Source: Deltaproteobacteria bacterium ADurb.Bin207
GTDB taxonomy: Bacteria; Myxococcota_A; Polyangia; Polyangiales; Polyangiaceae
Direction: 5' to 3'
Assembly (NCBI GenBank): GCA_002070115.1
Contig: MWCO01000003.1
Location: 1-64,000 of the forward strand
DNA length: 64,000 bases
Below are positions 10,436 through 50,703 of this stretch, in pieces. A program made the position numbers and the translations under genes. Each line of letters begins with the position of its first letter. Position 1 is the first letter of the stretch. The notes beneath the pieces were generated by a model, which was not told the origin of the DNA, did no database searches, and worked only from the letters and a program-made list of their open reading frames with translations.

Positions 10436-11989
10436 CTACGGCTGCACAGGATAACCCAGCCGGATCCGGTACAGATAATCCCAGGGGCCTGTCGGATTGT
10501 TCGCCGGTGCGCTCACCCCCACCACTTCCAGCTTGTTCGCGCCGATGCGCATGATCGTGAAATGAAGCTGTCCTTGGACGTTATGAGGCCCCTGGTAAAA
10601 CGGCGTGCCCAAGCTGAACGTGGGAATTATAATATCTTGATAAGGGGAGGGGCACGGGAACTCTTTATGCTCGGGACGGTGGTGGTTATGACCATGTATG
10701 TACGCAAGCACCGGCCAATTCGGTGATAATTTCTTGCCGATCCCTTCGAACGATCCGGTTCCGTGCTGGGCATGATGGATCAACTTACAAAACGACTCTT
10801 TCTCTTCCGCATCGAGGGAACCTAAACCGTAATGCGCCGTAATGACGATTTGCCGTTTGGCGCTGTTTTTTCTCGAAAGCAAAAACTCTTTGAGAAATCT
10901 GCGGGAGTCATGAGGATCGACGATGCGGACATTCGTGTTGGTCTCATTGGGTAAGTTCTCCGCTTTCCATCCTGGTTTGACATTCACATTGACGAACCAG
11001 ATATCATCCCAGCGCCAGGCATAATGCCCTGTGCCCGGTGTCGCATCATCGTAAAGATCTTTGGCATCCCCTGGTCGATGCGCTTGCGTGATGCGGTCGA
11101 GATAGTCGATCACTGGATGGTGGTCGGGATTTCCCGGCAAGGCCGCGCGGGGAAAATCATGATTGCCGTATAAGTCGTAGACCGGAAAGCTCAGCTTGTT
11201 CTCGGTTCCGCAGCGCCCGAATGCCTCCCGATAGACCGTATATTGCCGGCAGACAGCCTGACCCGCTGGCACGGATTCGCTTCCTGTCTGGGTGAGATCG
11301 CCAGCGATGATGACCCCCCGAACATGAGAATAAGGCTTGTCTTCCTGGGCAAAACTTGCCCCTTTCGGCCATACATGCGTGCCGATGCTGTTGATCGCTT
11401 GACGGATCAACAGGTTTTGATTCGGCGCGTCATTCTTGTTGACGCTACACCCAGGACTCGGATCCGCCGCATGGGGATCTCCGAACCCAACGAAGGTAAT
11501 ATCCCGTTTGTCCGCCCCTTTCCACCACTGCATCGGATCGAAAATGCACTTGAATAGATCATCCGCCTCGGAGCAAGAACCACAATCCTGAGGACAATTA
11601 CCGCAGTCTTCCCCAGGATCGCAGACTCCATTGCCGCAGGTCGGTGGGCATTGCCCGCAGTCTACCGCACAATTGCCGTAATCCTCTCCCGGATCGCAGA
11701 CTCCATTGCCACACCCCGACGAGACTTCCGAAACAATGTCCGAAAAAGCATCCGGCAGAGCATCCGGCGGCCACTCATCGAAAACATCCGAATTTCCGCC
11801 AGTATCCGTTCCCGACTCTTGTCTGGCATCCGACGATATCGCTGCGTCTCCCACCGCGGCGTCGACCTTCGGGTTCGTGGTTTCCCCCTCTGATTCCGAA
11901 CTCGAGGAACAGCCCCACGACAAAATTCCTGCCCCGATTCCCCAGGCCCATAGCGTGACCCATCGTGCGCAATGACCTCGCTTCGCCAT
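10436..11989 (-). CDS. Secreted metallophosphoesterase lipoprotein with Cys repeats
   Basis: About 517 residues from the ATG at 11989, which is preceded by GGAGGGTGAG; a start at 12001 is less likely. The lipobox is LSWGCSSS. Next come a low-complexity Ser/Asp linker and two copies of a roughly 22-residue Cys repeat (CGNGVCDPGED then NC, DCGQC/DCGSC); the first copy lacks one Cys. The calcineurin-like domain shows DPH (in VGFGDPHA), GDLTQ, GNHD, TAHYG and GHNHH, that is, the full two-metal site. It probably cleaves phosphoesters at the cell surface. It is divergent from a paralogue of the same architecture at 12575. Confidence 0.88.
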   Translation of the reverse strand: MAKRGHCARWVTLWAWGIGAGILSWGCSSSSESEGETTNPKVDAAVGDAAISSDARQESGTDTGGNSDVFDEWPPDALPDAFSDIVSEVSSGCGNGVCDPGEDYGNCAVDCGQCPPTCGNGVCDPGEDCGNCPQDCGSCSEADDLFKCIFDPMQWWKGADKRDITFVGFGDPHAADPSPGCSVNKNDAPNQNLLIRQAINSIGTHVWPKGASFAQEDKPYSHVRGVIIAGDLTQTGSESVPAGQAVCRQYTVYREAFGRCGTENKLSFPVYDLYGNHDFPRAALPGNPDHHPVIDYLDRITQAHRPGDAKDLYDDATPGTGHYAWRWDDIWFVNVNVKPGWKAENLPNETNTNVRIVDPHDSRRFLKEFLLSRKNSAKRQIVITAHYGLGSLDAEEKESFCKLIHHAQHGTGSFEGIGKKLSPNWPVLAYIHGHNHHRPEHKEFPCPSPYQDIIIPTFSLGTPFYQGPHNVQGQLHFTIMRIGANKLEVVGVSAPANNPTGPWDYLYRIRLGYPVQP

Positions 11990-38483: not shown

Positions 38484-39431
38484 TTACCACTTCACGACGA
38501 CGGTTTTAGGAACGAAGGATACCTGCACGCCATCGAGTTCGAGTTCGATGGGTAATGCGGCGGTCTTCTTGTTGACGTCGGCCTCGCGGACCGTCACCCT
38601 CGGGACGATCTGCTCCGATCGAAGATCCGAGACGAAGTCCGGTGCGCCAAGCACGCGGACATCAACCTGAGAGGGAAGGGCCGTTGCACGAGCCACGCCG
38701 ACAATCTGTACGTGAACCTTGCTGAATACTCGTTCACGAAGCTTCCGAATGATTTCCACGGTCGCCGTGGCGTGAGTGACATCGTATGTCACTCGTGGAG
38801 GAGGTCGTTCGACCACGAGCGTACGCTTGTGGGTTCCATCGGAAAGTCCTGAAATATCAAATGGTTCCACGCGAGCCACCTGCAGGTTTCCCACCACGTG
38901 GCTAGGTCCGCGAGCCAACAACGTATCGGGGATGGCCGATGCCCTTCCCTTGATCACAAATCCTTCCGCGGGTGCTCCCGTCACGGGGACCTGCACCTGA
39001 ATTGGCCTTTCCACGACATCATCCCAAGAGATGTCGAGCGTGGAAGGGTCGATGGAATCGATGGTCACACCGCCAGGAACACGAAGCATGCCCGGTTCGA
39101 GCGGAATGGTTCCCGTTCGTCCCATCCGCAAATCAAGCTGCATATTGCCGAGATCGGAGGATCGCAGGTCGCCGACGATCGATCGGGGACCGTGCAAGCT
39201 GACTCGAATCGATGTGGGCAGATCCGTGGTCAGGGTGCGGTTTTGCGAAGCGGGGGGCAAGAGCACGACCAAGTCGACGGCCATGATGCGTTGTGCATCC
39301 TGGGCACCGTGAACGAATGCGTAGAGTGTGATGGCGCATGCCAGGCTGAACGCTTTCAACCCGAGGTTGCGAGAAAACGTTGGTTTGATGGCACGCCACA
39401 AAGCTTGGGGTGTTAAAGGAGGGAATTTCAT
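38484..39431 (-). CDS. YbbR-domain protein (CdaR-like)
   Basis: A 315-residue protein with one N-terminal membrane helix at about 22-42 (GLKAFSLACAITLYAFVHG) and repeated YbbR beta domains outside the membrane. The repeats are seen in PTSIRVSLHGPRSIV, RPIQVQVPVTGAPAEGFVIKG and RVFSKVHVQIVGV. In Firmicutes the YbbR protein CdaR regulates the cyclase CdaA, and here it sits directly downstream of cdaA with a four-base overlap. The function here is inferred from this linkage. Confidence 0.88.
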   Translation of the reverse strand: MKFPPLTPQALWRAIKPTFSRNLGLKAFSLACAITLYAFVHGAQDAQRIMAVDLVVLLPPASQNRTLTTDLPTSIRVSLHGPRSIVGDLRSSDLGNMQLDLRMGRTGTIPLEPGMLRVPGGVTIDSIDPSTLDISWDDVVERPIQVQVPVTGAPAEGFVIKGRASAIPDTLLARGPSHVVGNLQVARVEPFDISGLSDGTHKRTLVVERPPPRVTYDVTHATATVEIIRKLRERVFSKVHVQIVGVARATALPSQVDVRVLGAPDFVSDLRSEQIVPRVTVREADVNKKTAALPIELELDGVQVSFVPKTVVVKW

Positions 39432-40540
39432 GCTGTATCACCCGGTTTGCTCGTGGGAGTTGCCGACGCGGATGCCATCGGGGTGGAGATTTCCCGGGTA
39501 GATTTCGGCCCGTCGGATGCCATCGAGGTGGAGATTTCCCGGGTAGATTTCGGCCCGTCGGATACCATCGGGGTGGAGATTTCTCGGGTAGATTTCGGCC
39601 CGTCGGATACCGGAACGATCTTGATCGGCGTGGCTATCGGTGAAGAACGAGGCACGGTGGATACACGAGGCGGCGGAGGTGTGGCGATCGCCACCCGACT
39701 CACCGAATCCGGCCCTTTGCTTTTCTTCTTATCCATCACCATCGGAGCTTTCGGCGCACGACCAAAAATGCGCAACAGCGTTTTGCGAAGCACTTCACCA
39801 TCGAGATCCGTCACGATGTTTCCATTGAAACAAAAGCTTATGGTTCCACGTTCTTCGCTCACCACGATCACCACCGCATCCGTTTCCTCCGTGATTCCAA
39901 TCGCTGCCCGGTGACGAGACCCATAGGCTGCATCGATATTTTTTGCTTCTGGCATGGGAAAAAACACGCCAGCCCTCGCAATGCGAAGGTTCCGAATGAC
40001 CACCGCTCCGTCGTGCAACTTGTTCATCGACTCGGGGATGAACATCGTTACCAACAGCTCCTTGGTCACCGCCGCATCAATCATCGTTCCTTGGCCCACC
40101 ACGAACTCATCCAAGGTCGCGTCTTGCTCGAACGTGATCAAAGCTCCCGTCCGATGCCGTGCCAGCTCCGTGGTCGCCGCCACGACCTCGTCGACCACAC
40201 GTGCCTCGAGCGCTCGACCCCATCCGCCAAACAACGGATTGGAGCCGAGACGCATCAAGGCACGTCGAATATCGTTTTGGAATACCACCACGATGATCAA
40301 AATGATCGACGATAGAAGATAGGAAAACAGGTTTTCCAGCGTGACGAGCCCTAGCCATCGCGCCGCCACGTAGGTGATGAAAATGAATACGATCCCAAAT
40401 CCCATCTGGACCGCGCGCGTGCCTTTGAGCACCAGCAGCCCGCGATAAATCAATACCGTCACGACCAAAACGTCGAGCACTTCCCCGGCCAAGCGCAACA
40501 ACGACATCGACTGCCAGACACGAAGCCACTCTGCAATCAT
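39428..40540 (-). CDS. cdaA: Diadenylate cyclase CdaA with repetitive C-terminus
   Basis: A 370-residue membrane-bound enzyme that makes c-di-AMP from two ATP. Three N-terminal helices cover about 20-90 (VLDVLVVTVLIYRGLLVL and others). The DAC (DisA_N) domain follows, with DGA at 177-179 and RHR at 209-211, the catalytic pair. The last roughly 80 residues are unusual: three tandem 15-residue repeats of SDGPKSTREISTPMA, then an Ala/Ser/Thr tail, absent from typical CdaA. It overlaps folP and ybbR by four bases on either side, so it is tightly coupled. Confidence 0.95.
   Translation of the reverse strand: MIAEWLRVWQSMSLLRLAGEVLDVLVVTVLIYRGLLVLKGTRAVQMGFGIVFIFITYVAARWLGLVTLENLFSYLLSSIILIIVVVFQNDIRRALMRLGSNPLFGGWGRALEARVVDEVVAATTELARHRTGALITFEQDATLDEFVVGQGTMIDAAVTKELLVTMFIPESMNKLHDGAVVIRNLRIARAGVFFPMPEAKNIDAAYGSRHRAAIGITEETDAVVIVVSEERGTISFCFNGNIVTDLDGEVLRKTLLRIFGRAPKAPMVMDKKKSKGPDSVSRVAIATPPPPRVSTVPRSSPIATPIKIVPVSDGPKSTREISTPMVSDGPKSTREISTSMASDGPKSTREISTPMASASATPTSKPGDTA
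39467..39611. repeat. Tandem 45-base repeat inside cdaA
   Basis: About 3.2 copies of a 45-base unit beginning at 39482, 39527 and 39572, with a partial copy before the first. Copies differ at only a few positions. The unit is a multiple of three, so it encodes a 15-residue repeat in the CdaA C-terminus without disturbing the frame. Such repeats can change copy number by slippage. Confidence 0.9.
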
Positions 40541-41412
40541 GGGCTTCCTCGCCAGTCTCGCACACCATCTTGCCCGATATCACGGGCTACTGCGAACGCC
40601 TGGCGCACGTCCAGTACATCGTGGATGCGAAGCACCGATGCTCCCCGCGCCGCACACGCCAGGCATGCCGCGATGGTTCCCCCGATTCGACGATTCGGTG
40701 TCGACTGGACACGGGCCGCGAGAAACGACTTGCGACTGGGCCCCACGACGATCCCATGTCCCAAGGATCGAAACTCATGCAGCCTTGCAACCAGTTCGAT
40801 CGAATGACGCGCGTTCTTGTTGAATCCGAGGCCCGGATCGAAAAACACATCCTGTGCATCCAAGCCCGCTTGCATCGCCCGTTTTGCGGCTTGTTGCCAT
40901 TCGTTACGAACGTCTTGAATCACATCCTGGTAGGCATCATCATCGCACACGGAAAATCCTTGCATTTTCGACATCGGCTCGCGCGCATGCATGATGATCA
41001 GCGCGGCCCCTTGCCGAGCCGCCACACGCGCCAACGCATCACCATCGCGAAGGCATGATACATCATTGACGACACTGGCTCCGAGCCGAAGGGCCTGTTC
41101 CGCGACCTGCGCATCGGTCGTATCGATCGATACGATGACACCTCGGGATACCGCATGGACAATCGCATCCGTCGTTCGGCGAATTTGCTCCTCCGCAGGT
41201 ACGGGAGCGGATCTCGGACGCGTGGATTCTCCTCCAATATCAATGAGTTGCGCGCCTTCCGCGACCAGTTCGTCTACCCTTCGCAGCGCCGCATCTCGAT
41301 CGAAATACTCACCCCCATCGGAAAAGGAGTCCGGAGTGATGTTCAGGACTCCCATCCAAAGTGGATCGTCGTTGTCGTTCCGTCGATCCAGCATCTTTCG
41401 AAGGGCGCTCAC
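40537..41412 (-). CDS. folP: Dihydropteroate synthase
   Basis: A 291-residue cytosolic enzyme that joins para-aminobenzoate to dihydropterin pyrophosphate. It has the family motifs MGVLNITPDSFSDGG near residue 21, LIDIGGESTRP near 55, VVNDVSCLRD near 110, FFDPGLGFNKN near 190 and GPSRKSFL near 230. The length is normal. It is the first gene of the minus-strand operon and overlaps cdaA by four bases. This order (folP next to cdaA and ybbR) is common in delta-proteobacteria, where ftsH and glmM often flank it; neither is present here. Confidence 0.96.
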   Translation of the reverse strand: MSALRKMLDRRNDNDDPLWMGVLNITPDSFSDGGEYFDRDAALRRVDELVAEGAQLIDIGGESTRPRSAPVPAEEQIRRTTDAIVHAVSRGVIVSIDTTDAQVAEQALRLGASVVNDVSCLRDGDALARVAARQGAALIIMHAREPMSKMQGFSVCDDDAYQDVIQDVRNEWQQAAKRAMQAGLDAQDVFFDPGLGFNKNARHSIELVARLHEFRSLGHGIVVGPSRKSFLAARVQSTPNRRIGGTIAACLACAARGASVLRIHDVLDVRQAFAVARDIGQDGVRDWRGSP

Positions 41413-41568
41413 GACCTACGGGTAGCAGCGCCGACCGGGCGAAGCAAGAGCAGCTTTTATCAGACAACGACGGTCGGTCGGAACGCTCACTCTTGCCATA
41501 CGCGCCCAGTGGTTCTAGCGTCTGTTCCTAGGTAGCCCTTATGGTTCCGGGCCCACCCTAGCGCTCCC

Positions 41569-43308
41569 ATGCTCCGCACGCGTGCTCAAGCCGGTTCCGG
41601 CGCCATCCTCGTCCTGAGCTTGGTCTTCGCCATAGCATTTAGCGCCATTTGCTCCTTCGACTTGGTCGTTTCTGCTTGGACCCCGAGCTTCAATGCTCCC
41701 GCCGGCATCGCCATTCGCGTCCCTTTTGGCGCCCGTTTCGTCGAAAAAGGCGACGCAGGCTCGGCCCAAGTCGTCTACGAACGCGCTCGCATGGCGGTGG
41801 CTCCAGGCACCATCATCGACCAAAGCCTCGCATCCCATCGAGAAGCGCTCGCGTACGAGCTGGGACGGCGTCCTCCAAGCTTTGCTTCCCTCGGAGCCCT
41901 TTTTCTCATCTACACCGCCCTATCGCTATTGCTGACCACCTATATCGTGCGCCTGGGGCAAAATAGGCTGCGCCTGCTTCGCTCTCAACTCGGTGTTTTT
42001 ATTCTTATTTTACTGATGATGGTCGCCACCAAGGCGATCCTGTTGTTCACCAACCTGCCCGAATATTGGTCTCCCATTGCCGCCGTGCCCCTATGGATTG
42101 CGCTGGCCTTCGACCGACGAAGCGCCCTGCTGATCAATATCGTTACCGCCTTTCTCGCCGCCTCGTTGCTGCGGTTCGACATGATGTTCCTCGCCATCGC
42201 TTTGGTGCGAGGAATGACCGTCATTCTTTTGCTCATGAACCGGCGAAAACCCGTGAGCCTGCTGGTCACCAGCCTCATGGGAGGCATTGCCTCGGCCCTT
42301 CTATATATTGCCCTGAGTACCGTGCTCGAGGGAAATTTTGATTTAATTCGCGATCTTGGACGTCTCGAGGGATCCTATATCCTGTCTTGCATCGGTGGCG
42401 GCGCGCTTGCTGGACTGCTTGCCACGGTGTTACGAGATCCGGTGGAACGGCTGCTCGGTCACGTACCCCGCGACAAACTATTGGACTTGACCGATATCGA
42501 ACACCCCTTGCTTCGAAAACTGGCTAGTGAAGCTCCCGGCACCTGGGAGCACTCTCGCGCCATGGCCAATCTCGCGGAAGGCGCTGCTTCTGCCATCGGC
42601 GCGGATGCTTTGCTCACGCGGGTCGGCGCCTACTACCACGACTTGGGCAAAACCGTCCAACCAACCTTTTTCGTCGAAAATCAGGGCGAAGGTCCTTCAC
42701 CCCATGATGACTTGCCTCCCGAGGTATCCGCCGACGCCATCATGGCCCATGTCGTGCTCGGCACCAAAATCCTTCGCGAAGGTGGTATCCCCGAACCCGT
42801 CGTCGAATTCGTCTACACCCATCATGGCACCCAACTCGTCGAGTATTTCTGGCACAAATACCTGCAACAAAACCCCGAACCCGCCCTTTCCAAAGACCAT
42901 TTTCGCTACCCGGGAATGAAACCCCAAACCAAAGAAACCGCGATCCTGATGCTCGTCGATTCCATAGAAGCGGCCTCTCGTACCGTCGACCCCCCCACGA
43001 AAGACGGTTTTGAAGAAATGATTCGACGTGTGGTTTTTACCAAACTCCAAGCGGGTCAGCTCAATCATTCCAACCTGACCATGGAGGACTTGCATGTGCT
43101 TACCGAGCGCATGGCGAACGCGTTGGTCAATATGTTTCATGGTCGAATCAAGTATCCCTGGCAACGACAACAAGAACGCAAGCCAGCCCAAAGCTTCACC
43201 ACGCCACGGCCCGGCGAGGTCGCCCCGCTGGCCGTTCCCCCCCCGCCGCCTCCTGTCGAAGAACCTACCCATCAATCGTCCCATCCAACGACGGCCGTGG
43301 TCCCTTGA
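41569..43308 (+). CDS. 7TM-HD phosphodiesterase, PgpH-like (probable c-di-AMP hydrolase)
   Basis: A 579-residue membrane protein. A first helix (residues about 12-35) is followed by a short external segment, much shorter than the 7TMR-HDED domain of Firmicute PgpH, then about seven helices (110-300). The cytosolic HD domain has TWEHSRAMANLA, H357-D358 in YYHDLGK, and HHGTQLVEYFWHKY, the signature of the 7TM-HD family whose PgpH members cleave c-di-AMP. The C-terminus is Pro/Gln-rich. It is divergent from folP-cdaA with 156 bases between, so shared control is likely. Confidence 0.88.
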   Translation: MLRTRAQAGSGAILVLSLVFAIAFSAICSFDLVVSAWTPSFNAPAGIAIRVPFGARFVEKGDAGSAQVVYERARMAVAPGTIIDQSLASHREALAYELGRRPPSFASLGALFLIYTALSLLLTTYIVRLGQNRLRLLRSQLGVFILILLMMVATKAILLFTNLPEYWSPIAAVPLWIALAFDRRSALLINIVTAFLAASLLRFDMMFLAIALVRGMTVILLLMNRRKPVSLLVTSLMGGIASALLYIALSTVLEGNFDLIRDLGRLEGSYILSCIGGGALAGLLATVLRDPVERLLGHVPRDKLLDLTDIEHPLLRKLASEAPGTWEHSRAMANLAEGAASAIGADALLTRVGAYYHDLGKTVQPTFFVENQGEGPSPHDDLPPEVSADAIMAHVVLGTKILREGGIPEPVVEFVYTHHGTQLVEYFWHKYLQQNPEPALSKDHFRYPGMKPQTKETAILMLVDSIEAASRTVDPPTKDGFEEMIRRVVFTKLQAGQLNHSNLTMEDLHVLTERMANALVNMFHGRIKYPWQRQQERKPAQSFTTPRPGEVAPLAVPPPPPPVEEPTHQSSHPTTAVVP

Positions 43309-45160: not shown

Positions 45161-45290
45161 TGGCGGTCGGGGATACTTCGGGTAACGGGAGCGCCACTGT
45201 TTTCGCGACAACGAAACCTTTTCCTTGCAGCGCTGCAATCCTACAAAACGGAGTCTGTTCGAACTGCTTGACTTCTCTATGGATTCAGTT

Positions 45291-45306
45291 TGGCACCATT
45301 CATGCT
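45291..45306 (+). promoter_or_regulatory. Sigma-54 promoter candidate (-24/-12)
   Basis: TGGCAC (45291-45296), then five bases, then ATGCT (45302-45306). This gives GG-N10-GC with exact spacing and a perfect -24 box; only the first T of the usual TTGC is changed. The predicted start of transcription is near 45317. It lies upstream of a strong stem-loop and a terminator-like hairpin rather than close to a gene. No activator binding site was identified. Confidence 0.5.
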
Positions 45307-45316
45307 TACTATTTCG

Positions 45317-45420
45317 GGTGCAGCGTCGGACGCGACAAGCCTTGTCCCTGACGTTGTCCCATCTTCTCAACGCCCGGTAGACGCATAGCCCCCCTCGTCC
45401 CGGGCGTTGCTCCTTTTGTC
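45317..45420 (+). ncRNA. Candidate small RNA of about 100 nt
   Basis: The predicted transcript begins near 45317. A 5' stem-loop forms at once: CAGCGTC (45321-45327) pairs with GACGTTG (45350-45356), seven pairs with one G-U, and an inner stem GACAA/TTGTC (45334-45338 and 45342-45346). A C/T-rich single-stranded stretch (about 45357-45368) follows, then the terminator hairpin with a C-rich loop, and TTTTGTCC. A sigma-54-type promoter sits at the right distance upstream. The coding potential is nil. No known family is recognised; from memory, the myxobacterial Pxr sRNA is likewise sigma-54-dependent, but homology is not claimed. Confidence 0.45.
45369..45418 (+). terminator. Terminator-like hairpin
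   Basis: A nine-pair stem AACGCCCGG/CCGGGCGTT (45369-45377 and 45400-45408), extended by GACG/CGTC (45380-45383 and 45396-45399) after a two-base bulge. Then GCTCCTTTTGTCC. The T-tract starts five bases after the stem and is short, so termination may be partial. It could serve the acyl-CoA dehydrogenase gene as well as the sRNA candidate. Confidence 0.5.
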
Positions 45421-47759: not shown

Positions 47760-49802
47760 TCATGGCTTTGCTTTGAGCCATTGGCGAATTCCGCCTACCA
47801 TGATGTGTCCCCAAACGTCCGGGCTATCGTCGACCACCTCGAGAATCGCGGTTTTTCCTTTGAAAGAAGTGATGTTCCAGGCTCTACGCCCCAGGACTTC
47901 ATGGTTGTGTCCGGTGGCGGATGCCACACGGGTACCTTCGACGATCAACGATACGCGAAGGCGTTGTGGGTCTCTTCCTCCGCCTACCCAAAGGAGCAAC
48001 AAGTCTCCTTGAAGCTCGAAGGGTGGAGAGGTGATGGTTCCGGTGGCTCGGTCGCCCAGCGATTCGGTAAACGAGTTCAGGTAGGGGCCTGAATGTCCAA
48101 AGACGTGCTCTTGTCCGGCGACGGGTCGCAAGGTTGGGGCGTTTTCAAAGGCGTTTCCGGATTGTCTCCATCCGCTGAGATTGTGTAAGTCCAGGCGTGT
48201 GTTGGGGTCGTGGAGCAAGGAACCTTCACCGAGATCCTCGCGAACCCACAGCCCAGGCTGTTGAAATCCCGGCGGGAAATCGGTGAAGACATAATAGCCA
48301 TAGGGACGGAGATCACCTGGGACATAGCCCCATTTCACATAGGTGGGGTGGTGGGAAAGCAGGTAATCGCGCGAGCCGCGTTTCTCATGGCCTGCTTTTC
48401 CTTGGCCGAAATTATTTACTTTCATGCGAGCAATCGCGGGGTCGATCACTCCGTAGACGTCGTGGACGATCAGATTGGTGAAAAAGCCCGTGGCACCGAT
48501 ATCTCCTGCCACGATGCTTTCCCCGGCGTGGGAATAAGAGCCCAACCACTTGGAAAATTTGATGTTATTGTGGACTTGCTCGCCGTATAGAGAGATTTCG
48601 TGGGTGTAAGGGCCTCGTTCGAAGCCGCGGGCGCTGAGCAGGCAAAAACCTAAGGCAACGGTGCCGTGGGTGATGCCGATGATGAATGCCATCCAGGGGG
48701 GATGTGCCATGAACCAGTGGGCGAGTGGTGTGGAGGAGATGCGTTTTCGTCCATGGTGAATGAGCCCTCCGATCAAAAGGGCGATGGCGGGAAGGAGCAC
48801 CAGAAGGAATCGATGGCCGCTGTAGAAGTCGCCGCCCACGTACACGACATAAGCGGCATGAAGGAGAAGCCAAAAAAGTAGCCATCGCACGACGGTATGA
48901 CGGAGCCAGGGCAAGGCGAGCAGGGCGAGGGCAGGGATATAGAATCGGTCTTCGGCGAACGTGCGGAGGTAGTGCCAGCCTCTTTCTATCGCATTGATTT
49001 CATTGCCTATTTTTAAATAATAGGTGTTGGGAAGCCAAGAATCATAATAGTGAACTCGCCATCCGAAGTAGAGTCCGAAAACGATGATGAAGGTGCCAAG
49101 GGCCAATCCGATTTGGGCCAAGGTAGCGGGTTGCGGTATCTGGGGTGGCGAGGGTTTTTTCCAAAGCAGGGATGGGATAGTGGCCAAAACGAAGGCGAAT
49201 ACGAACAATCCTGCATCGGGGCGAGTCATGCAGGTCATGGCAAGCAAAAGGCCTACCCAAAGTCCACGGAGCTTATGGGTGCGGAGCCATGCCCACAGGC
49301 AAGTGAGGGAAAGAAAGATCAGCAGGTGGTTTTCGAGACCGCTGATGGCATACCCGAGGTAGGCATTGTCCACGCCGCAAAGTACAATGGTGACGGAGGT
49401 AGCGAACCAATCGCGAGGGAAAAGATGCCGAGCGATGGCGAAAAGGAGCGCAAGGTTGAGCATGGAAAGGGCAACGGAAATGCCGATGGCCATGCGAACG
49501 AAGTCGGTTCCGAGGCTTTGCGACAGGGCGTAGAAGGGGGCTAGCACCACGACCCATAGAAAGTTGGTATAACCTTCCACGTACTGTCCTGGGTTGAACA
49601 CCAATCCCTGGCCTAGCACGAGGTTGCGGGCGTATTGGAACGAGATATAGGCGTCATCGATGACATTGTGATGGTAGAGGCGGGCGAACGATGTTGCGGT
49701 CAGGGATACGTACAGGGTGGTGAGAAATAGGCACCACACGGCCGGGTCTGTGGCATTGACAAGGGGTGAGGGTCGATGGGAGGAGCGGTTGAAGGGTTTC
49801 AT
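47760..49802 (-). CDS. GT-C glycosyltransferase with levanase-type C-terminal domain
   Basis: About 680 residues from the ATG at 49802; a frame from 49907 would overlap the divergent regulator start. About ten membrane helices cover residues 10-440. The conserved first-loop motif is DDAYISFQYARNL near residue 45, with FNPGQYVEGYTNFLW, as in lipid-linked-sugar GT-C transferases of the arabinosyl/mannosyl group. The C-terminal ~140 residues (GTITSPPFELQG, VGGGRD, RRAWNITSFKGKTA, VVDDSPDVWGHI) match the beta-sandwich seen in GH32 levanases. It probably glycosylates an envelope polymer outside the membrane. Confidence 0.85.
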   Translation of the reverse strand: MKPFNRSSHRPSPLVNATDPAVWCLFLTTLYVSLTATSFARLYHHNVIDDAYISFQYARNLVLGQGLVFNPGQYVEGYTNFLWVVVLAPFYALSQSLGTDFVRMAIGISVALSMLNLALLFAIARHLFPRDWFATSVTIVLCGVDNAYLGYAISGLENHLLIFLSLTCLWAWLRTHKLRGLWVGLLLAMTCMTRPDAGLFVFAFVLATIPSLLWKKPSPPQIPQPATLAQIGLALGTFIIVFGLYFGWRVHYYDSWLPNTYYLKIGNEINAIERGWHYLRTFAEDRFYIPALALLALPWLRHTVVRWLLFWLLLHAAYVVYVGGDFYSGHRFLLVLLPAIALLIGGLIHHGRKRISSTPLAHWFMAHPPWMAFIIGITHGTVALGFCLLSARGFERGPYTHEISLYGEQVHNNIKFSKWLGSYSHAGESIVAGDIGATGFFTNLIVHDVYGVIDPAIARMKVNNFGQGKAGHEKRGSRDYLLSHHPTYVKWGYVPGDLRPYGYYVFTDFPPGFQQPGLWVREDLGEGSLLHDPNTRLDLHNLSGWRQSGNAFENAPTLRPVAGQEHVFGHSGPYLNSFTESLGDRATGTITSPPFELQGDLLLLWVGGGRDPQRLRVSLIVEGTRVASATGHNHEVLGRRAWNITSFKGKTAILEVVDDSPDVWGHIMVGGIRQWLKAKP

Positions 49803-49846
49803 GATCGACGCAATCGGCCGTGCTGCGAGAAGTACTAGTATTTCCC

Positions 49847-49873
49847 TTGACTTACATTTGCCTGGCCTATACT
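49847..49873 (+). promoter_or_regulatory. Sigma-70 promoter of the DtxR-family gene, near-leaderless
   Basis: TTGACT (49847-49852) and TATACT (49868-49873) with a 15-base spacer. The expected transcription start is about 49880, one or two bases before the ATG at 49882, and no Shine-Dalgarno is present. An eight-base palindrome TACTAGTA (49833-49840) just upstream may be an operator. It probably shares control with the divergent glycosyltransferase gene. Confidence 0.55.
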
Positions 49874-49881
49874 TGTTAGCA

Positions 49882-50703
49882 ATGCCTACCGTTTCCAAAT
49901 CTGTCACAGAACAGCAAGCCCGAGTAGGCGAGCTATCCGAAAGTCTCGAAGATTATCTCGAGATTATACTTCAACTTCAGCAGGAGAAGCGAGTCGCGCG
50001 GGTTCGTGACATTGCTGCCAAAAAAGGGGTGTCGAACGCGAGTGTATCCAACGCGTTGCACCGGCTTTCGCGCGACGGATTTGTGAATCATCAGGCGCAT
50101 GAGTTCGTGGAGCTGACGGACTTGGGTTTGGATTTGGCGCATCGGATTTTACGTCGACACGAGTTTTTAGTCTCTTTTTTACGTGATGTGTTGCAGGTTT
50201 CGGAGACGGGAGCGGAGCGGGATGCGTGTGCGCTCGAGCATCATCTTTCTTCCGAGACTCTCGAGGCGCTTTCGACTTTCTACCAGTTTGTATGTTCTTG
50301 TCCTCGGGTGGGAGTTGGTTTTTTGCAGGCCTACAAGGCATGTTGCACGCGCAAGGAGGGTGCCACGGACGTGGGGGAGGGGCTGGGTTGTGCCAACGCG
50401 GGGCCGGAAGGTTCCCGCCGTTGTGAAGCTGGGGGAAAGGAGGAAGATGATTTGCTTCCGTTGAGCGAATTAGGGGCGGGGCATGTGGGGCTGGTGGTTC
50501 GTCTCAAAGCGCCCCGATTGCTTCGAAAACGCTTAGTGGATGCAGGTTTTCTTCCCAACGTGGAGGTGGAGGTTCGGCGTTCCGATCTGGAGCATCGAGG
50601 GGTTCAACTCGTGGTGCAGGGCTGTGAGATGCTCATGGACGCGCAAGAGGCGGCGGTGGTTCTTGTTCGTCCCATCGCACCGAAAAAAAACGATTTGGCG
50701 TGA
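49882..50703 (+). CDS. DtxR/MntR-family metal-dependent regulator
   Basis: A 273-residue transcription factor. The winged-helix domain at about 15-80 has SLEDYLEIILQLQQE and RVRDIAAKKGVSNASVSNALHRL, typical of the DtxR N-terminus. The dimerisation helices follow, with metal-ligand-type His and Cys (in CALEHHLSSETLEAL and FVCSCP). An insert of about 50 residues, rich in Gly and charge, precedes a C-terminal FeoA/SH3 domain (ELGAGHVGLVVRLKA). It normally binds Mn(II) or Fe(II) and represses metal-uptake genes, but no transporter gene is adjacent. Confidence 0.92.
   Translation: MPTVSKSVTEQQARVGELSESLEDYLEIILQLQQEKRVARVRDIAAKKGVSNASVSNALHRLSRDGFVNHQAHEFVELTDLGLDLAHRILRRHEFLVSFLRDVLQVSETGAERDACALEHHLSSETLEALSTFYQFVCSCPRVGVGFLQAYKACCTRKEGATDVGEGLGCANAGPEGSRRCEAGGKEEDDLLPLSELGAGHVGLVVRLKAPRLLRKRLVDAGFLPNVEVEVRRSDLEHRGVQLVVQGCEMLMDAQEAAVVLVRPIAPKKNDLA

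Follow-up and report, generated by a model that had tools for sequence, protein, structure and literature searches.

Pxr is a small RNA of Myxococcus and other Cystobacterineae that blocks fruiting-body development. It has a sigma-54 promoter, a length of about 108 bases, and stem-loops with a terminator-like 3' hairpin, and it occurs as several paralogs in Cystobacter. The loop of its first stem-loop contains CCCCCC, as seen when the primer and probe sequences of PMC5568312 were folded here, and a single C-to-A change in this loop inactivates the RNA (PMC5684412). The direct targets of Pxr are still unknown (PMC11928866). The pxr gene adjoins nla19/pxrR, which encodes an NtrC-like regulator, and its origin has been reported to lie in Cystobacterineae.

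The Qrr small RNAs of Vibrio are several sigma-54-dependent paralogs under one enhancer-binding activator. C-rich loops are a feature of sX13 of Xanthomonas, for which we know of no sigma-54 control. The RNA consists of three stems, and their C-rich apical loops target G-rich motifs close to start codons (PMC3771888). The 6C/B11 RNAs of Actinobacteria have hairpins with C-run loops, one of which is the terminator, and in mycobacteria the C-rich loop of the B11 terminator base-pairs to G-tracts adjacent to ribosome-binding sites (PMC12395582).

The locus analyzed here is probably an enhancer-controlled, sigma-54-dependent and free-standing small-RNA gene of a multi-copy class, the C-runs of which would pair with G-tracts in mRNAs. 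It lies in a window of 64,000 nucleotides (64 kb) on contig C3 of the Deltaproteobacteria bacterium ADurb.Bin207 genome (family Polyangiaceae, 6.55 Mb, 220 contigs), with an acyl-CoA dehydrogenase gene upstream and two Hsp20 genes downstream. The acyl-CoA dehydrogenase gene ends 130 bases upstream of the locus, and Hsp20 starts approximately 170 bases past the T-tract, both on the same strand as the locus. Two other parts of the window may be recorded. At 39428-43308, a FolP-like frame, judged as such by eye, is flanked by frames for a protein with a diadenylate cyclase domain (PF02457) and for a 7TM-HD protein (PF07698, PF01966), in a manner resembling a pair that makes and breaks c-di-AMP. 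At 49717-50703, a DtxR type iron-dependent repressor with a FeoA domain at its C-terminus is encoded.

The features of the locus are listed in Table 1. TGGCAC-CATTCA-TGCT is the sole exact match to TGGCACN6TGCT in the 64 kb, where 0.11 are expected. The segment 45317-45425 has a two-hairpin fold of -42.2 kcal/mol (z = -5.10), and none of 200 shuffles folded as well (mean -27.96, sd 2.79). Hairpin 2 has 14 pairs and a 2-base bulge, and together with the short T-tract, which is weak in the window copy, it is probably an intrinsic terminator, judging from the sequence. The single sense frame of the locus is a 20-codon frame that begins with GTG at 45318 and is not kept in relatives; it is therefore fair to say that there is no coding frame. 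A preliminary description of this DNA had proposed the promoter element, a two-part stem-loop from the predicted start, a C/T-rich unpaired stretch, a bulged hairpin of 13 pairs with a T-tract, and the lack of a coding frame. These parts were placed correctly, with one more pair in hairpin 2, while the C-run in the terminator loop, the palindrome 66 bases upstream, and the copies elsewhere had been missed.

Table 1. Sequence features and predicted elements of the small-RNA locus in the window
Feature	Sequence	Position	Strand	Basis
Predicted enhancer (activator-binding) palindrome	TTGCAGCGCTGCAA	45225..45238	+	Perfect TTKCAN4TGMAA, 66 bases upstream of the -24 box
Sigma-54 -24/-12 promoter element	TGGCACCATTCATGCT	45291..45306	+	Exact match; distance kept in related copies
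Predicted transcription start		45316..45318	+	Inferred, ~12 bases past the -12 GC
Hairpin 1, two-part		45317..45360	+	Fold and alignments
Unpaired C/T-rich linker	ATCTTCT type	45361..45367	+	Fold; ATCTAT/ACTTCT in alignment
Hairpin 2, terminator-like stem with inner stem and C-run loop	CAACGCCCGG/CCGGGCGTTG	45368..45409	+	Fold
Predicted seed: C-run of the hairpin 2 apical loop	CCCCCC	45389..45394	+	C-run in 8/8 aligned copies
Short T-tract	CTCCTTTTGT	45410..45419	+	Sequence; T-tracts also after hairpin 2 in copies

Related copies were found in the same genome and in another genome of the family, G015. A DNA search with 181 bases retrieved copies on contigs C49 (88% over 77 bases) and C1 (76%), as well as two copies in G015. 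The covariance search of relatives that the preliminary description had suggested was carried out with a first model of six copies, which yielded three matches in the own genome and five in G015 at E values of at most 2.4e-9, the next being 3.6e-6 and weaker. A second model (R2), built from the eight transcripts with the promoter left out, gave the same three and five strong matches over 184 genomes of the order. Weak covariance matches lacking a C-run or promoter (e.g., L068, L186, and L191) were excluded from these counts. The match in the window begins at 45315, near the predicted start. The C49 copy is flanked by genes for a NapB-like cytochrome and a PALP enzyme, and the C1 copy by genes for adenylosuccinate lyase and topoisomerase VI A, where it faces its neighbour. 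The promoter box is held at a fixed distance in the copies, while the other sequence just upstream mostly differs; in copy p3 the -24 element is degenerate (TGGTAT). In G015, two copies lie approximately 370 bases apart on the minus strand of C88 (L148, 10658-11136), and a third hairpin with a C7 loop is present in the G015 copies between hairpin 2 and a strong T-tract.

The fold is largely conserved among these copies. In the eight-row alignment, the 20 pairs derived from the window are kept in 93.1% of cells, and hairpin 2 is paired in 98.8% of cells across the eight copies. Two pairs of stem 2 are changed on both sides, one from A-U to G-C and the other from G-C to C-G and U-G. The covariation score was 0.18, compared with at most 0.063 for slid versions of the structure. 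The outer pairs of hairpin 1, as drawn for the window, do not fit the G015 copies. Conservation with compensatory change in relatives was the test by which the preliminary description could have failed, and the eight related sequences with their covariation support the predicted structure without proving it. A fourth, divergent RNA of the own genome lies on contig C10 (L247, 7871). It was found only through the enhancer motif and box, and neither sequence nor covariance searches matched it. Its fold consists of two hairpins, one with a C9 and the other with a C7 loop, and a longer inverted repeat comes after its T8 tract.

The predicted enhancer site was found by positional k-mer counts. In 7 of the 8 copies, TGCA is present at -71 to -53 relative to the box, and it is almost absent from the rest of the 230 bases. 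A similar clustering of TGCA was seen at 39 other sites, from which the consensus TTKCA-N4-TGMAA was read. The motif was then scored at 38 unique hairpin sites, a set that leaves out the window and its copies but includes the C10 site. In the region from -120 to -35 of the box, these sites contain 8 perfect and 12 one-mismatch motifs, against 0.06 one-mismatch motifs in shuffles. The control region from -230 to -145 of the same sites contains no perfect motif and two with one mismatch. The motif starts mostly at -56, -66/-67, and -76, in steps of one helical turn. A perfect motif followed by the box occurs four times in 2.09 Mb of the own genome (the window, C1, C10, and C16), three of them at C-run RNAs; the C16 site has no C-run. 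Seven scrambled motifs with the box gave no match in the same 2.09 Mb. The motif is perfect at -65 in the C10 copy and in the C1 copy, despite the degenerate -24 element of the latter, and it has one mismatch at -65 in the C49 copy. The G015 copies have two to three mismatches, with variants near CTTCA-N4-TGCA mostly at -65/-66. Because the consensus was read from sites that were also scored, the case for the motif depends mostly on the independent checks, namely the control region, the scrambled motifs, and the copies on C1 and C49. The perfect motif in the window is the only one in its 64 kb, and since 0.42 are expected in that length, its position rather than its presence counts.

The own genome encodes one RpoN (E 4.8e-64) and approximately 40 matches to the activator domain. 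The encoded RpoN and the fixed distance of the box in the copies are consistent with the sigma-54-dependent small RNA that the preliminary description had suggested, as far as sequence comparison can support it. No PF00158 activator domain was found on contig C3 or C49, and the nearest one to the C1 copy is approximately 80 kb away. The predicted activator would therefore act from elsewhere.

Similar loci were found more widely in the family. A search for the box followed by a C-run gave 96 distinct sites, among those listed, compared with 45 in a G-run control. The C-runs cluster sharply 33-35 bases after the TGC of the box, where 27 sites were counted, compared with 2 for the G-runs of the control. 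C-runs located 27-42 bases past a box lie in stems of at least 12 pairs in 20 of 30 cases, compared with 30 of 397 other C-runs (p = 6e-14), and the sites inspected are hairpins with C6-C10 loops. Genome G031 contains eight tandem C-loop RNA genes, each with its own box (L139, 8069-11645, minus strand); at 11014-11132 of the same stretch there is a ninth model match without a recognisable box. Tandem arrays are also present in Minicystis (L144), while G066 and G067 have two-hairpin RNAs, G122 has single-hairpin RNAs, and G097 has repeated hairpins. Over 732 kb, the R2 model gave 35 matches at E values up to 0.5, six of them its training copies, and 28 of the 29 others fell at independently marked sigma-54/C-run sites of other genera. 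No R2 match was found in approximately 400 kb of other own-genome sequence. Because the 20-kb stretches in the 732-kb sample had been chosen for their sigma-54/C-run sites, what counts in this evidence is that almost no matches fell elsewhere.

The class was defined by TTKCAN4TGMAA at a phased distance, a TGGCN8TGC box, and one or more hairpins with a C-run of at least 6 in the loop, and the window locus has all three. Matches to the pattern across the phylum, set against a reversed-pattern control, numbered 59 and 21 in the family, 39 and 21 in the rest of the order, and 32 and 11 in the rest of the class. We read these results as pointing to a multi-copy class in Polyangiaceae, the RNAs of which have from one to several C-loop hairpins and are sometimes encoded in tandem clusters. 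Sites with a box, a C-run, and common motifs are also present outside the family but within the order, at L185 (G237) and in G430, G055, and G276. In another class, G189 and G211 share a GTTCCCCCC-type site that resembles stem-loop 1 of Pxr.

The comparison with Pxr that had been drawn earlier proved apt for the anatomy. The window locus has, as sequence or prediction, a sigma-54 promoter, a length of about 100-110 bases, stem-loops, and a 3' terminator-like hairpin. The C-run of Pxr is in the first stem-loop, whereas that of the window copy is in hairpin 2; its hairpin 1 loop has lost the C-run, while paralogs p2 and p3 have CCCCCC there and match Pxr in this respect. The pxr gene adjoins its regulator gene, whereas contig C3 carries no gene for an activator, and the present class is found in Polyangiaceae rather than in Cystobacterineae. 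Since the neighbouring regulator is absent and hairpin 1 of the window lacks the C-run, membership in the Pxr family is not claimed. No sequence match to Pxr was recognised. A pxr-like pattern had no match in 379 genomes of the phylum, none of which is identifiable as Myxococcaceae, nor in family f38, which holds two genomes and therefore says nothing about Myxococcaceae. The likeness in design to Pxr is close, and homology is unproven.

Other described RNAs are more distant. The 6C/B11 RNAs belong to a different phylum, and the present class differs from them in its sigma-54 promoters, enhancer, and many paralogs; the Rfam 6C RNA had no match at the gathering threshold in the window or seven related loci. 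The Qrr RNAs differ from the class in fold and seeds. The Alphaproteobacterial ar14/mmgR family (RF02344) matched two G015 copies weakly, and membership was rejected, with 10.8 bits for the window and 29.3 bits at best (L005) against a cut-off of 58.8 bits. No family of Rfam 15 matched the window or the seven related loci at the gathering threshold, and permissive thresholds gave nothing above cut-off. No description of such RNAs in Polyangiaceae was found in the open literature, and the class is apparently undescribed so far.

A mechanism can be proposed from these features. An NtrC-type activator would bind the palindrome at 45225-45238 and switch on sigma-54 RNA polymerase at 45291-45306. 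The resulting transcript of approximately 100 bases (about 45317-45420) would terminate at hairpin 2. The C-run in the loop of this hairpin, joined in sister RNAs by one in the loop of hairpin 1, would then pair with G-tracts close to the start codons of several mRNAs, the translation or stability of which would be lowered. The class to which the locus belongs would have spread and diversified in Polyangiaceae. The constant feature of the class RNAs is the C-run in apical loops, and by analogy with B11 and sX13, the favoured action is pairing with a limited number of mRNAs that carry G-tracts. G-tracts occur at 0.42 per kb just upstream of predicted starts in the own genome, compared with 1.69 per kb in coding sequence. 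The depletion, with 3 G-tracts where shuffles gave 9.4 (p ~0.04, with rough start calls), is a weak signal that would fit an avoidance of off-target pairing. The complement of the conserved loop, GGGGGCTAT, was not found near the start codons of 324 predicted genes. Genes with G-tracts near their starts were considered as targets and were too few and unspecific to name.

The surroundings of the window copy suggest two other readings. The locus could be just the terminator of the acyl-CoA dehydrogenase operon with a promoter-like box by chance, in keeping with the terminator form of hairpin 2 and the nearby end of a same-strand gene. This is very unlikely, since copies beside unrelated genes and in other orientations keep the box, the spacing, and hairpin 1, and the perfect enhancer motif stands at the usual position of the class. 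A 5' leader or attenuator of the Hsp20 genes would suit their strand and their distance from the T-tract; no other copy examined sits before an Hsp20 gene, and the C1 copy faces its neighbour, which makes this reading highly improbable. It is just as hard to credit that the copies are a REP/MITE-type repeat or mobile element, spread by copying rather than by function. Multi-copy intergenic hairpins and the arrays of Minicystis and G031 would agree with such an element, but the own genome holds few copies (3-4), the promoter and enhancer geometry is fixed although the upstream sequence is unrelated, the C-run is confined to one strand, and stem 2 has compensatory changes.

The main rival accepts a real sigma-54-driven RNA and differs in its action, in that the C-run loops would capture a protein or a different RNA rather than pair with many mRNAs. 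Titration of this kind would be suited by the repeated C-run hairpins, up to several per transcript, and by the multi-copy clusters, whereas mRNAs are the targets of those C-loop RNAs that have been studied best. A sponge is unlikely, and pairing with mRNAs remains the preferred action.

Myxobacterial small RNAs have so far been known mainly from Pxr. There is about an even chance that Polyangiaceae, and probably other Polyangiales too, possess an undescribed RNA regulon in which one activator recognizing TTKCA-N4-TGMAA acts with sigma-54 on dispersed or tandem genes for RNAs with C-run loops. The class predicts one common activator and the C-run as a testable seed, and its members in Sorangium-, Chondromyces-, and Minicystis-type genomes offer many natural variants with a readable promoter and enhancer code. 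Regulation by C-rich terminator loops has been described as rare in Gram-negative bacteria (PMC12395582), and the class would extend it to a large group of social bacteria. If there is such a regulon, Pxr would be a relative of an older and wider class, or a parallel to it.
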